A DNA stretch of 64,000 nucleotides from NCBI GenBank assembly GCA_017622995.1, contig JAGAQA010000008.1, forward strand, positions 1 to 64,000. Direction: 5' to 3'. Made by a program: the position numbers and the translations under genes. The stretch comes from Oscillospiraceae bacterium (lineage in GTDB: Bacteria; Bacillota; Clostridia; Oscillospirales; Oscillospiraceae). The notes under the pieces are model-generated. The model was not told where the DNA came from, searched no databases, and saw only the letters and a program-made list of their open reading frames with translations. Shown here piece by piece: positions 1 through 61,565 of the stretch (position 1 is its first letter; each line of letters opens with the position of its first letter).

Positions 1-235
1 AATGCGGCTTATTCACACACCGAAGGTGTGTAATTTCAAAAAATGGCTCTTTTTAACCATTTTTTGAAATTCAGACAGCAATCAATGCGTAGCTTTTCCT
101 GCATGGCGAACCATGCAGGAAAAGCAGGTGCAAGGGTTTTGCGGCCAAAGCCGCAAAATCTTTGCACCCGAATAACGCAAAGATTTCCGGAAAGCCTTGG
201 CTTTCAAGACTTTTTGCGTTATTCAGTACGCATTA
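1..235 (+). repeat. Multi-hairpin dispersed repeat, copy A (cut by window edge)
   Basis: This stretch is nearly identical by eye to the reverse complement of 61285-61526. It is a run of consecutive inverted repeats: 15-21 with 25-31; 34-46 with 57-69; 94-106 with 111-123 (CGAA loop); 127-133 with 162-168 enclosing 137-145 with 150-158; and 170-181 with 213-224. The right end finishes in CTTATT-like and CAGTACGCATTA sequence that matches the terminus of the other copy. The 15-31 hairpin is absent from copy B. No transposase is inside it, so it looks like a MITE-type or structured non-autonomous element. It forms the upstream region of the ECF S-component gene. Confidence 0.8.
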
Positions 236-263
236 TATAGAACGGCAGCAGGAGGAATTGCAT

Positions 264-26168: not shown

Positions 26169-26339
26169 GGAACTTCTGAACAAATCGTCTGCGGGTGAGC
26201 AGCGGATCTTTTGCTCTGACAGTGCAGTTTGAAAAACAGGAAATACATACAGTATTCCTCTGTTTTCCAAACCTTCTGTCAAATCAAAATCTCCCGCTGT
26301 CTGCTCTTGCCGACTTATTCAGAGCTTCCCTAACTGTAG
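26169..26339. mobile_element. MITE with IS5-like ends and CTAA target duplication
   Basis: The ends are imperfect inverted repeats, GGAACTTCTGAACAAAT on the left and, read inward from the right, GGAAGCTCTGAATAAGT. Both sides are flanked by CTAA (26165-26168 and 26340-26343), the 4-bp CTAR duplication typical of IS5-group elements, whose ends also begin GGAAG. The interior (about 26218-26280) is one long imperfect hairpin and codes for nothing. Confidence 0.7.
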
Positions 26340-28358: not shown

Positions 28359-28368
28359 TTGTCATTTG

Positions 28369-28404
28369 CAATTGGGCGGCCGAATGGCGGCCCAATTGTA
28401 TTTT
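28369..28404 (+). terminator. Terminator between ferredoxin and LCP genes
   Basis: CAATTGGGC and GCCCAATTG form the stem, followed by TATTTT. Confidence 0.65.
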
Positions 28405-28418
28405 CTGGAGGAATGTCA

Positions 28419-29543
28419 ATGCGCAAGGGAGGACGCTTTTTAGCACCTCAGCCCGATAAAAAGGGAAAGACCTGGCTGACCGTTCTGGTCATTCTTCTGG
28501 CGGTTGTTCTGCTGGTGGGTGCCATCGGCGCCGGGTTCGTGGTTTCCAAGCTGAACCGGATTCAGCGGGCCCAGCGGGGAGACAACAATCTGTCCGCCGA
28601 CGATCTTTCCGGCCTGCTGGTGGACGACCCTACCCAGGAGCCCGAAACAACAGCTACCACGGAGCCCAAGCCCACAGACCCGGATTACGGGAAAACGGGC
28701 AAGGTCATCAATGTGCTGCTGATCGGTCAGGATGCCCGGGAAGGGGAGGACAGCAAAAACGCCGACACCATGATTCTGGTCACGGTGAACAAGGAAACCA
28801 AAACCATCACCATGACCTCCTTCCTGCGGGATACCCTGGTGTATATCCCTACGGTCCTTGACAAAGACGGTACGCCCCACAGCGGCCGGACCAAGCTGAC
28901 CCTGGCCTATGCCATGGGCTACAAGTGGGGCGGCGACCTGGGAGCCATGGAGATCATCGACAAGGTGATTGAGCGGAACTTCGGCGCCGTTGTGGACGAC
29001 AACATCGAAGTGGATATGGATGCCTTCGATGCCTGCATCAACGCCCTCCACGGCGTGACCATCACCCTGGATGAGGATGAGGTCAACTATATGAACAAAT
29101 ACTTCGAAAAGTACGATCCGGATCGGGTTTTCGAGGTGGGCGACAATCTGGTGGACGGCTGGGCGGCGGAGGTATATGTCCGTACCCGCCATGCCAACAA
29201 CGGCGACAACGATTTCAATCGTACCGACCGCCAGCGGGCGGTGATCGGCCAGGTGCTGGAAAAAGTGAAGAACATGAGCCTGGCAGAGGTCAACCGGCTG
29301 GTTGACCAGCTCCTTCCCATGGTGCTGACGGATATGACCAATACCGATATGGCAAACTGTGTGATGGAGCTGCTGCCGCTGCTTCCGGAAATGAAGCTGG
29401 AATCCATCCAGTGCCCCAATGAGCAGATGGGCCGCCGGGGAGCCACCATTGACCTGTTCAGTGACGGGATTTCCCACAGTGTGCTCTATTTTGACGAGGC
29501 TAAGGCAAAGAGCATCATTACTGCCTTTACGGAGGCAGATTAA
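28419..29543 (+). CDS. LytR-CpsA-Psr (LCP) family protein, copy 1
   Basis: A 374-residue protein with a short cytoplasmic head, one membrane segment (about 21-45), an acidic Thr/Pro linker and an outer LCP domain from about 95. Recognisable are VINVLLIGQDAREG, ADTMILVTVN, SFLRDT with the phosphate-binding arginine, and VRTRHANNGDNDFNRTDRQR. LCP enzymes transfer teichoic acids or polysaccharides from undecaprenyl carrier to peptidoglycan. The ATG at 28419 is seven bases after GGAGG. It is followed 24 bases later by a close paralogue. Confidence 0.92.
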   Translation: MRKGGRFLAPQPDKKGKTWLTVLVILLAVVLLVGAIGAGFVVSKLNRIQRAQRGDNNLSADDLSGLLVDDPTQEPETTATTEPKPTDPDYGKTGKVINVLLIGQDAREGEDSKNADTMILVTVNKETKTITMTSFLRDTLVYIPTVLDKDGTPHSGRTKLTLAYAMGYKWGGDLGAMEIIDKVIERNFGAVVDDNIEVDMDAFDACINALHGVTITLDEDEVNYMNKYFEKYDPDRVFEVGDNLVDGWAAEVYVRTRHANNGDNDFNRTDRQRAVIGQVLEKVKNMSLAEVNRLVDQLLPMVLTDMTNTDMANCVMELLPLLPEMKLESIQCPNEQMGRRGATIDLFSDGISHSVLYFDEAKAKSIITAFTEAD

Positions 29544-29567
29544 CGAATACAAGAGAGGTAATCACAT

Positions 29568-30701
29568 ATGTCTAAAGGCGGACGGTTCCTGGAGCAGAAG
29601 GCACCGGAAAAGGGCAATGCCTGGGTAAAGGTGCTGGTGATCGTGCTGGCCGTGATCCTTGTGATCGGCGCCCTGGGAGCCTGGTTTGTAGTATCCAAAA
29701 TGAATAAGATCCAAAAGGCCCAGCTGGCGGAAAACCAGCTGTCTGAGGAAGATCTGGCGGGCCTTCTGGTGGAAGACCCCACCCAGGAGACGGAAGCGGT
29801 TCCCACGGAAACCACCGAGCCCAAGCCCACCGACCCGGACTACGGCAAGATGGGCAAGGTCATCAACGTCCTGCTCATTGGCCAGGATGCCCGGGAGGGT
29901 GAGGAGAGCAAGAACTCCGATACCGTGATCCTGATTACGGTGAATAAGGAAACCAAAAAGATCACCATGACCTCCTTCCTCCGGGATTCCTATGTTACGC
30001 TGAACAACGTGGTGGATTCCAACGGCAAGAGCCACAGCGGTTCTACCAAGCTGACCCTGGCCTATGCCCTGGGTTATCAGTGGGGCGGCACCCTGGGCGC
30101 CATGCAGGTCATGGACCAGGTCATCACCAATAACTTCGGCCCCGTGGTGGATCATAACATCGAAGTGAACATGGAGGCCTTTGATGCCTGCATCAATGCC
30201 CTGGGCGGTGTGACCATCACCCTGGACAAGGACGAAGCCAAGTATATGAACAACTACTTCTCTAAGTTCGAGGCCGAGGGCCGGGAATTCTTTGAAGGCG
30301 ACAACCTGGTGGACGGCTGGGCGGCGGAGGTCTATGTCCGTACCCGTCATGCCAACAACGGCGACAACGACTACAATCGGACCAACCGTCAGCGTCAGGT
30401 GGTTGCACAGGTGCTGGAAAAGGTCAAGAATATGAGCATTCTGGAGCTCAATAAGCTGGTGGACCAGCTTCTGCCCCTGGTTTCCACCGATATGTCCAAT
30501 GCGGATATGACCAACTACATCCTGGAGGTTCTGCCCATCCTGCCGGAAGTGACCCTGGAATCCATCCAGTGTCCCAATAAGGAAATGGGCCTCTACGGCA
30601 AGATTGAAGATATTTTCCACAACGGCGAAGAGCACAGCGTCCAGCACTTTGACCCCGCCAAGTGCAAGGCCATTCTGGTTCCCATTACCGAGTGTGACTG
30701 A
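29568..30701 (+). CDS. LytR-CpsA-Psr (LCP) family protein, copy 2
   Basis: A 377-residue close paralogue of the preceding gene, alike from the first residues (KGGRFL) to the end, so a tandem duplication. It has the same single membrane segment (about 18-40), linker and LCP domain with LLIGQDAREGEES, SFLRDS, and VRTRHANNGDNDYNR. The loop after SFLRD differs most between the copies (YVTLNNVV against TLVYIPTVL), a place that lines the lipid-binding groove in this family. The two may therefore accept different glycopolymers. The DUF3783 gene begins one base after it ends. Confidence 0.92.
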   Translation: MSKGGRFLEQKAPEKGNAWVKVLVIVLAVILVIGALGAWFVVSKMNKIQKAQLAENQLSEEDLAGLLVEDPTQETEAVPTETTEPKPTDPDYGKMGKVINVLLIGQDAREGEESKNSDTVILITVNKETKKITMTSFLRDSYVTLNNVVDSNGKSHSGSTKLTLAYALGYQWGGTLGAMQVMDQVITNNFGPVVDHNIEVNMEAFDACINALGGVTITLDKDEAKYMNNYFSKFEAEGREFFEGDNLVDGWAAEVYVRTRHANNGDNDYNRTNRQRQVVAQVLEKVKNMSILELNKLVDQLLPLVSTDMSNADMTNYILEVLPILPEVTLESIQCPNKEMGLYGKIEDIFHNGEEHSVQHFDPAKCKAILVPITECD

Positions 30702-59710: not shown

Positions 59711-61287
59711 AACGCAAAGAAATGATAGATGCATACAATTCCGTTTGTCTTTCCGAACAGGAAAAAGAGGCTCTGTTGGGAAGCATTCTTTCGGCATCAG
59801 ATCAGGGCCTAACGGAAAGGAAACCAACGATGAAGCTTTGGCGTAAAAAATTCCTTATGACGGCGGCACTTATCGCGGCTTTGGCTATTTTTATGGGGTG
59901 TGCTGTGGTGGCACTCAGTACGAAAAAATTGAAGCTGGATGAATATCGGGAAACCCAACCGGCCTGGATCGACTGGGAGGGGCAGCGGCATGAAGCAACA
60001 GAGGTTACAAAGACGGTTCTGTCGCTTCAGGGCCTCCGTGACACCCCCGAACAGAAAGCGGCGCTGGAATGGTATCAGTTTGTGAAAAACTACGACCCGG
60101 ACCATACCATTTATATGGAAGCCGGAGGGAAATTCCAGGCACCGGAGGAGTACAGGGCGTACAATGTTTATTCCCAGGCTATGGTGGACAAGCTGGGCCA
60201 AATCGCGGAGAAATATCATTTGGCGCTCTCCGGCAGGAAGGCAACCGCATATTCCTACGATTGGAAACTGGGCTGGGACGCAATCGGCGTTCATTCCCCG
60301 GTTCTTTCCGGGACGGATGAAACTTATGGGCTCAGGGGCTGCACGTTTTTTGAATCCGGGAATTTTTTCCTTTGGACCGACTTCCATGTGACGGATCCGG
60401 ATTTTTCTTGGAAGAATCCAACCTATCTGTCCTTGAGCTACAAGAAAAAGGGCTATATGGATACAACAGTTGTGGGCCTTTACGATGGACCTGGTTCCAG
60501 AGCATGGAACTATACCCGCAGCGACGGCAAATCCGTTCTGATTGTTGTTTCCAACGATGCTTCTCAGCCCGCCAATGACAATGCGTTTATCATCTGTGAC
60601 CGGGAGGACGCATTCCTCTACGCGCAGTTTGAACCGGCGTATTACCCGGATCATGGAGCGGGAACCCGGGAAGAGATGTCGGACCGGGATTTGGAATGGC
60701 TTGCAGAGCATATTGATTTTTCCATCCAGCCGCGCAAACCGGATATGGACCGTGTTCTACCCTTGCTTGAAAAGGAGGACGCGGAATACGATGCCCTGTT
60801 GGAGCAGGATAATCCGTTCAGCCAGGATTGCTACGGCAAGCTGCGTAAGGTTCTGGGCAGCGTTGCAGCGTACCATCTGATCGATTTGGATGGCGATGGG
60901 AAAGATGAGTGCTTCTTCTGGGATCAAAACGGGAATCCTCAGCTCTATACCATGATAGATGGCAAAACGGCTCCGGTTCAAACTCCGGGGGACAAAGCAT
61001 TCGGTATCCAGGGAGCGGTAGCTCTGTGCGAAGGGAATGTGCTGAAAACCTATGAAGAGGTTGGACAGGCTTATCAGCTGTACTGTTTTTACACTGTGGA
61101 TCGGGGAACGCTCCTGGAGCAGAACCGGCTTGTGTATGACATTGCCAACGACTGCTGGGGCCTGAGTCTCAGCGGCATTCACATCGACAAAGCCTTAACC
61201 AAATCGGAAGCGGAGGAACTCCTGGGATCCTATGTGGAAATTCCTCTGGAACATTTGCCCATAGAGTCATTCCCGGATGATACATAA
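59707..61287 (+). CDS. Membrane-anchored anti-sigma factor candidate with large ectodomain
   Basis: A 526-residue protein with a cytoplasmic head of about 47 residues, one membrane segment (about 50-70: FLMTAALIAALAIFMG) and an outer domain of about 455 residues. The head (MKRKEMIDAYNSVCLSEQEK) is short and lacks the HxxxCxxC zinc motif, so it is not a classical ZAS anti-sigma factor; the role is inferred from its ATGA overlap with the sigma gene. The ectodomain is unfamiliar but contains a LIDLDGDGKDE calcium-type loop near residue 395. The stop codon TAA is formed by the terminus of the inserted repeat, so the natural C terminus may have been longer. Confidence 0.65.
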   Translation: MKRKEMIDAYNSVCLSEQEKEALLGSILSASDQGLTERKPTMKLWRKKFLMTAALIAALAIFMGCAVVALSTKKLKLDEYRETQPAWIDWEGQRHEATEVTKTVLSLQGLRDTPEQKAALEWYQFVKNYDPDHTIYMEAGGKFQAPEEYRAYNVYSQAMVDKLGQIAEKYHLALSGRKATAYSYDWKLGWDAIGVHSPVLSGTDETYGLRGCTFFESGNFFLWTDFHVTDPDFSWKNPTYLSLSYKKKGYMDTTVVGLYDGPGSRAWNYTRSDGKSVLIVVSNDASQPANDNAFIICDREDAFLYAQFEPAYYPDHGAGTREEMSDRDLEWLAEHIDFSIQPRKPDMDRVLPLLEKEDAEYDALLEQDNPFSQDCYGKLRKVLGSVAAYHLIDLDGDGKDECFFWDQNGNPQLYTMIDGKTAPVQTPGDKAFGIQGAVALCEGNVLKTYEEVGQAYQLYCFYTVDRGTLLEQNRLVYDIANDCWGLSLSGIHIDKALTKSEAEELLGSYVEIPLEHLPIESFPDDT

Positions 61288-61526
61288 TGCGTACTGAATA
61301 ACGCAAAAAGCCTTGAAAGCCAAGGCTTTCCGGCAATCTTTGCGTTATTCGGGTGCAAGGATTTTGCGGCTTTGGCCACAAAACCGTTGCACCTGCTTTT
61401 CCTGCATGGTTCGCCATGCAGGAAAAGTACGCATTGATTGCTGTCTGAATTTCCAAAAATGGTTAAAAAGAGCCATTTTTTGAAACTACAAATAAGCCGC
61501 ATTGGCGGCTTATTCAGCAGACATTA
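61285..61526 (-). repeat. Multi-hairpin dispersed repeat, copy B (complete)
   Basis: Inverted relative to copy A at 1-235. The termini are imperfect 17-base inverted repeats: TAATGCGTACTGAATAA at 61285-61301 and TTATTCAGCAGACATTA at 61510-61526 (its reverse complement TAATGTCTGCTGAATAA, 14 of 17 alike). An extra hairpin absent or cut off in copy A is AATAAGCCGC, ATTG, GCGGCTTATT (61491-61514). The CCTGCATGG hairpin has a TTCG loop on this strand. It codes for nothing. Confidence 0.8.
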
Positions 61527-61535
61527 AATAAAGGC

Positions 61536-61565
61536 ACACCCCCGTGACTGCGGTCACGGGGGTGT
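61536..61565 (-). terminator. Terminator after the U32 gene
   Basis: On the minus strand ACACCCCCGTGAC pairs with GTCACGGGGGTGT around 4 bases, followed by GCCTTTATTT. Confidence 0.7.

Follow-up and report, generated by a model that had tools for sequence, protein, structure and literature searches.

The closest described counterparts of the repeats analyzed here are the small bacterial MITEs, that is, non-autonomous DNA transposons, and related interspersed repeats. The Correia/NEMIS, RUP and ERIC elements, as characterized in the portion of the survey on which we draw, are shorter than 200 bp and, CIR apart, form a stem-loop by pairing of their 5' and 3' ends; like the element reported below, they are small and (nearly) non-coding, carry terminal inverted repeats (TIRs) and target duplications (TSDs) and give transcripts that are predicted to be highly paired, whereas here there are two separate modules with six hairpins in about 255 nt (PMC2229807). 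CIR of Caulobacter and Brucella, with its two arms joined by a linker, offers another partial parallel but, in the same portion of that survey, measures about 110 bp, has a GANTC loop motif and is listed without a TIR and with the TSD unknown (PMC2229807). The bcr1-bcr18 repeats of Bacillus cereus comprise the MITE-like bcr1-bcr3 as well as others with a conserved secondary structure; however, they belong to another host, and the RNA-structured bcr10 and bcr18 are named apart from the MITE-like forms in the part of the article consulted (PMC3446304). Archaeal MITEs show the same relationship to their partners as the one proposed here, in that the borders alone match an autonomous IS, with IS5 and IS1182 partners both occurring, but they span 89-570 bp, and the consulted part of that report makes no mention of a hairpin array or covariation (PMC3852290). 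The literature searched, in the sections consulted, describes other families only and contains no MITE family of Oscillospiraceae (PMC3446304, PMC2229807, PMC2267715, PMC3852290). As a MITE with an IS5-type partner, the element described here is of a known kind; it represents a new family, and what is unusual is its covarying body of two modules and six hairpins.

The window, that is, the whole stretch of 64,000 nt from an Oscillospiraceae bacterium that was analyzed, is located on contig C62 of a 66-contig, 2.55-Mb genome. The initial annotation of this window pointed out two inverted, nearly identical copies of a chain of hairpins at 1-235 and 61285-61526, and both copies are indeed present, matching each other over the arm pairs 93-239/61281-61427 (147 nt, 96% identity) and 29-96/61423-61490 (68 nt, 94% identity). 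Copy B (61287-61524, plus strand; 238 nt between the TIR tips) is complete except for the loss of hairpin H5. Its left TIR, ATGCGTACTGAATAA (61287-61301, plus strand), and right TIR, ATGTCTGCTGAATAA (61510-61524, minus strand), were both located by the end-pattern scan, and the target flanks TACATA (61281-61286) and TAAATA (61525-61530) form an imperfect duplication with one mismatch. On the plus strand of this copy, module A (61285-61436) consists of a closing helix (61285-61295/61426-61436) that encloses hairpins H1 (61296-61350), H2 (61351-61394) and H3 (61398-61425, with the loop TTCG), and module B (61442-61523) of a closing helix (61442-61447/61518-61523) that encloses H4 (61450-61485) and H6 (61491-61514), H5 being deleted. 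Copy A (1-233, minus strand) is cut short because the contig starts inside the element; it is without the H6/right-TIR end, which is placed on contig C28 by a flank match. The left TIR of copy A, again ATGCGTACTGAATAA on the minus strand (219-233) according to the end-pattern scan, adjoins the target flank TATATA (234-239), and the identical six bases are found at the other end, on contig C28. The 17-base ends noted previously, TAATG..T.CTGAATAA, were correctly identified; the element itself, however, begins at ATG, the outer TA being part of the target duplication. Neither window copy wholly contains an open reading frame of 100 or more amino acids. Copy A lies immediately upstream of a gene for an ECF transporter S-component, whose ATG is at 264 (window 1-263), so any promoter of this gene would have to be situated within the element or on its far side. 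Elsewhere in the window (28359-30701), there is a tandem pair of LytR_cpsA_psr genes with about 80% DNA likeness.

The two window copies belong to a large family. The element is a non-coding sequence of about 255 nt, with some six hairpins and the 15-bp TIR RTGYSTRCTGAAYAA; a profile search over 182 loci recovered 76 distinct near-full copies, 69 of which measure 250-259 nt. Among the 70 near-full copies for which target duplications were counted (the other six were left out because of short flanks or an unrecognised end), 43 are bounded by an exact TSD, 28 of 6 nt and 15 of 7 nt, mostly of the form TAnnTA or TAnnnTA, compared with about three expected from shuffled flanks (2.4 and 0.65 for the two lengths, respectively); the remaining 27 show no exact 6-7 nt duplication. 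The exact-end pattern was matched in all 18 genome handles searched, which had been picked as carriers of the element and include at least three pairs that represent one genome each, and the reversed control produced no matches. Rather than two copies only, the genome to which the window belongs contains about 19 loci by our count, in which each split copy is one locus. Six of these are full-length or almost so, four are divided between contig ends, and the other nine are shortened or diverged copies or solo ends. This copy number, together with the absence of matches to the reversed ends, excludes chance. The ends coincide across the copies, and the suggestion of a MITE that accompanied the first description is borne out by these ends, the exact duplications and the multiplicity of short non-coding copies; the repeats are a non-autonomous DNA transposon (MITE) family of gut Oscillospiraceae.

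The element also accounts for several contig breaks in its own genome. A shared stretch of 117 nt links the ends of contigs C28 and C36 to the window start and to the start of C9, and the flanks pair C28 with the window, via TATATA, and C36 with C9, via TATGATA. Two further copies are apparently split in the same manner, one between C33 and the start of C8 (TATTTA) and the other between the end of C8 and C3 (CAAATA), with a 111-nt overlap in each case.

Among relatives, element matches were detected in 10 of the 60 genomes searched, namely, the genome of the window itself and 9 of 36 congeners (weakly in G017 and G029), and in none of the 23 genomes from other families of the order. A pattern scan of a species-genome collection returned at least 108 matching stretches, and the 80 matches listed carry MAG titles of Oscillospiraceae, Clostridia, Clostridiales or Bacillota, together with one Candidatus Intestinimonas. 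One carrier genome, G060 (isolate SIG506), apparently is the same as the record G321, with an identical contig and coordinates; since G321 is assigned to another genus of the same family, the element crosses genera. The near-identity of many SIG506 copies suggests recent activity. A phage or plasmid origin was rejected, with no match in either collection and no viral contigs. In one genome (G013), two copies of different subfamilies lie back to back in opposite orientations (locus L052, 1502-1760 on the plus and 1763-2017 on the minus strand).

The same ends also enclose other contents: a 44-nt form has only H6 and a 73-nt form only H1, others measure 87, 94 and 170 nt, and those of 416-426 nt hold other hairpin elements nested within them. 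Exact TSDs surround the forms of 87, 94, 170, 418, 420 and 426 nt, and none were found around those of 44 and 73 nt. The window harbors a second mobile repeat, a single fold-back element of 161 bp (26169-26329) with the ends GGAANNTCTGAAYAARTCG and CTAA on both flanks, which has 34 matching rows in its own genome, some of these being pieces of one copy, and is nested inside the main element at two loci (L146 and L086). A third hairpin-rich insert, with ends like TACTRNTTTCTNATARAA, is nested near H4 in two of the long forms (L183, 1298-1715, and L180, 4326-4751).

Short palindromes arrayed in DNA that seems to be intergenic could also be REP/BIME-like sequences that are moved by a Y1 (RAYT) transposase. 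Y1 elements, however, are not known to make TSDs, and the presence here of TIRs and 6-7 bp TSDs, along with the occurrence of the same ends at DDE-type IS genes (see below), renders such an origin highly improbable. An equally improbable alternative is that the array is nothing more than the ordinary transcription terminators of the neighbouring genes, grouped together. Terminator-like sites do occur in or adjoining copy B, a terminator-like hairpin being located at 61536-61565 of the window, and the flanks of several other copies in this genome also contain them. Across the family, 21 of 71 copies have such a hairpin no more than 70 nt away, but this enrichment is weak (30 of 172 for intergenic-like sites; p 0.04), and mobile ends, TSDs and dispersed copies would not be accounted for. 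Furthermore, the U32 peptidase gene that adjoins copy B was matched in 57 of 60 congeners, in a comparison of fragmented genomes with five candidates scored per genome, and an element match was reported beside none of these. The orientation of genes around 58 copies, obtained with a crude and unreliable gene caller, shows no clear bias.

The body of the element that these ends delimit consists of two fold-back modules, A, in which ATGCGTA and TACGCAT enclose H1, H2 and H3, and B, in which TGTCTG and CAGACA enclose H4, H5 and H6. As RNA or as DNA, the element folds far better than shuffled sequences. The chain of stem-loops described in the initial annotation is what copy B is predicted to form (-116.9 kcal/mol, z -10.6), and the predicted fold of copy A is likewise strong (z -14.3). 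In an alignment of 72 of the 76 near-full copies (L049, L066, L059 and L098 were left out, and H6, which is misaligned, lies outside the counted helices), 96.5% of the cells are paired and 40 of the 69 pairs have changed on both sides, with a covariation score of 0.351, against 0.134 for shuffled and at most 0.064 for slid controls. The covariation that the initial annotation proposed to look for is, then, found, with compensatory changes in more than half of the pairs and a score above the controls; pairing has been kept by compensatory changes as the stems changed sequence. The fourth pair of the module A closing helix, for example, is C-G in 33 cases, U-A in 22 and G-C in 9, and both terminal-repeat tips pair and covary with their internal complements. 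The loops are more constant than the stems, and some of them look RNA-like on one strand (TGCG, TACG or TTCG in H3, and CTTCGG or CGAAAG in H5).

Such a pattern brings to mind a mobile structured non-coding RNA, with a regulatory or helper role and selection acting on the folded transcript, a possibility that was already raised when the repeats were noticed and that is compatible with their being MITEs, so that it competes only with the proposal that the pairing is kept in DNA. Covariation in all counted helices, the strict length and the conserved loops, those of the UNCG type on one strand included, are all in its favor, as are the G-U pairs fixed at helix edges. When the pairs are taken from the RNA-predicted structure, there are 266 G-U versus 85 A-C cells and 17 versus 2 subfamily-majority pairs, a count that is biased inasmuch as the RNA folding program adds G-U pairs at the edges and never A-C; without five helix-edge columns, chosen for removal after the counts had been seen, the numbers inside the helices become nearly equal (98 G-U versus 84 A-C cells and 3 versus 2 majority pairs). 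Next to the H4 loop, 69 of the 72 copies share a fixed T-G pair. The first strand test, on 32 copies (L066 and L047 left out), gave 67 G-U versus 39 A-C mismatches, 31 of the G-U ones coming from one near-loop column.

Selection on RNA is expected to tolerate G-U over A-C. With strand-neutral pairing of H1-H4, the distinct mismatch events comprise 34 G-U, 38 A-C and 58 others. On the internal branches of the tree, there are 41 changes from one Watson-Crick pair to another, 11 to G-U, 12 to A-C and 14 to other mismatches, and on the terminal branches, 28, 37, 32 and 38, respectively. A control with 25 tRNAs gave 46 G-U and no A-C, an outcome that the tRNA finder may favour. Because G-U is not favored over A-C among the new mismatches, the pairing is more likely to be kept in DNA than in RNA, a conclusion toward which we lean without firmness and which is the weakest step of our explanation. 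The stem difference between the window copies, GCGGC versus GTGGC, which was taken at first as a hint that the folded form matters, is present but is a G-U pair on the copy A strand only; read from the opposite strand, it becomes an A-C mismatch and, by itself, gives no hint of RNA. No element match to Rfam reaches the gathering score in the window, where just two tRNAs do, and across the loci only sub-threshold matches, in four of them, were obtained, so identity with an Rfam family was rejected; nor did a scan around copy B find a promoter-like site. TSDs persist at copies without hairpins or a whole module, which also speaks against an RNA role, although the loss may postdate insertion. The absence of a strand preference among new mismatches, of an Rfam match at gathering score and of a promoter-like site near copy B thus tells against a structured RNA unit; the fixed G-U pairs at helix edges and the tetraloop-like loops keep it in consideration, as an unlikely but far from negligible alternative.

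If the pairing is indeed a property of the DNA, it might persist even without selection. During replication, template switching copies one arm of a palindrome onto the other (quasi-palindrome correction), and this process would mimic compensation. The equality of new G-U and A-C mismatches, the many changes between Watson-Crick pairs also on terminal branches (28) and the almost mismatch-free stems are all as such correction would have them. The loops and the overall length, however, are conserved, which correction does not require, and covariation extends even to the module A closing helix, with its span of about 150 nt; we regard this mechanism as less likely than not, though a serious possibility. 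Alternatively, mobility or its control might depend on folded DNA, the hairpin array with its conserved loops being selected in single-stranded or cruciform form. On this reading, the pairing of each TIR tip with the internal copy that closes its module would play a part; the likely partner, a DDE-type IS5 transposase, would be expected to act on duplex ends, a point in tension with it, and we consider such dependence rather unlikely.

The organization of the body hints at its origin. In the 69 of 72 copies with a recognised pattern, the linker between the inner ends of the modules measures 6 nt (47 copies) or 7 nt (22 copies), and these inner ends still resemble TIR tips. Since the linker has the length of the TSD, the element probably arose by the fusion of two small palindromic MITEs that had landed side by side, a scenario that we infer from these sequence features.

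A search for the autonomous partner started from 40 exact ends without an exact partner at the usual distance. A MITE profile match lies near 35 of these, being weak in L222, L244 and L248 and further in at L250, and none lies near the other 5. At one locus of G060 (L244/L262), TACCATA followed by ATGTCTACTGAATAA is located 106 nt from a gene for a 337-aa transposase, the far end being lost. Proteins matching this transposase are present in 2 of 14 MITE genomes and, when 394 genomes of the order were searched at E<=1e-30, in 10, one of which is G321 itself. Another locus, L273, is a 1,532-bp element bounded by ATGTCATCTTAACAA and ATGTCTACTGAACAA, with the TSD TATATA, and is the sole IS locus to show both ends; the full-length transposon with the same ends that was to be looked for thus has a counterpart, but its gene is broken and one end has 3 mismatches. 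In L270 and L271, a single end lies where it would be expected, the flank in L271 being TACATA. Altogether, a close end (at most 1 mismatch) is found at 4 of 10 IS loci (L262, L270, L271 and L273); these 4 hits compare with a mean of 0.06 and a maximum of 2 hits for 200 shuffled patterns, and the count of ten omits L265/L267 (the same locus as L262), L277/L278 (second pieces) and L266 (a fragment that likewise has no close end). The other six loci include L269 and L275, with weaker ends of 2-3 mismatches, and the homologue loci L268, L272, L274 and L276, where a recognisable end is absent.

All five proteins tested pass the cut-off of NCBIfam NF033578 (IS5 family), with scores above 275 bits, although only two of the five, from L244 and L271, come from close-end loci; the IS proteins carry DUF772 and/or DDE domains (DDE_Tnp_1_2). 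The TIR is the only sequence that the MITE and the IS have in common. In the fragmented assembly of the window's own genome, there are no matches to the partner transposase at E<=1e-10, and searches with PF01609 and rve also gave none; the partner may have been lost from this genome or may be unassembled. The MITE and an intact IS were never encountered in the same genome, the IS of G060 keeping one end only, and inward TIR pairs at IS distance with at most 2 mismatches were found neither in G000 nor among the 100 of 115 G060 matches listed. Several candidates were discarded: the genes at L198-L203, which have no end with fewer than 3 mismatches; L243/L263, where an unrelated IS seems to have entered what is left of a MITE; and three one-mismatch end matches in the own genome, which on reading of the sequence looked like chance. 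The remaining four of the five ends without a MITE profile match, L230 and L257-L259 (one in G013 and three in G064), are exact terminal-repeat sequences with neither the MITE body nor a transposase seen inside. The shared ends at some IS5-family genes make transposition in trans, as originally suggested, probable, and an IS5-family element with the same ends is the likely mobiliser.

Taken together, these observations are compatible with the following scenario, which we consider likely as a whole. Insertion of two small palindromic MITEs at adjacent positions would have been followed by the adoption of the outermost ends as those of a single unit. An IS5-family DDE transposase (NF033578; DUF772, DDE_Tnp_1_2) would recognise the 15-bp ends and, at TAnn(n)TA sites, insert the element with a duplication of 6-7 bp. 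The pairing would be maintained, more likely than in RNA, in DNA, whether single-stranded, cruciform or through copy-correction between the palindrome arms. Mobilisation in trans, the fusion origin and the DNA-level cause of the pairing are the parts of this scenario that we infer. Strong RNA-like covariation can occur in a DNA transposon, which is a warning for the discovery of RNAs on the basis of covariation. Conversely, the changed stems of this family make up a natural series for asking whether DNA hairpins help a DDE transposon to move.
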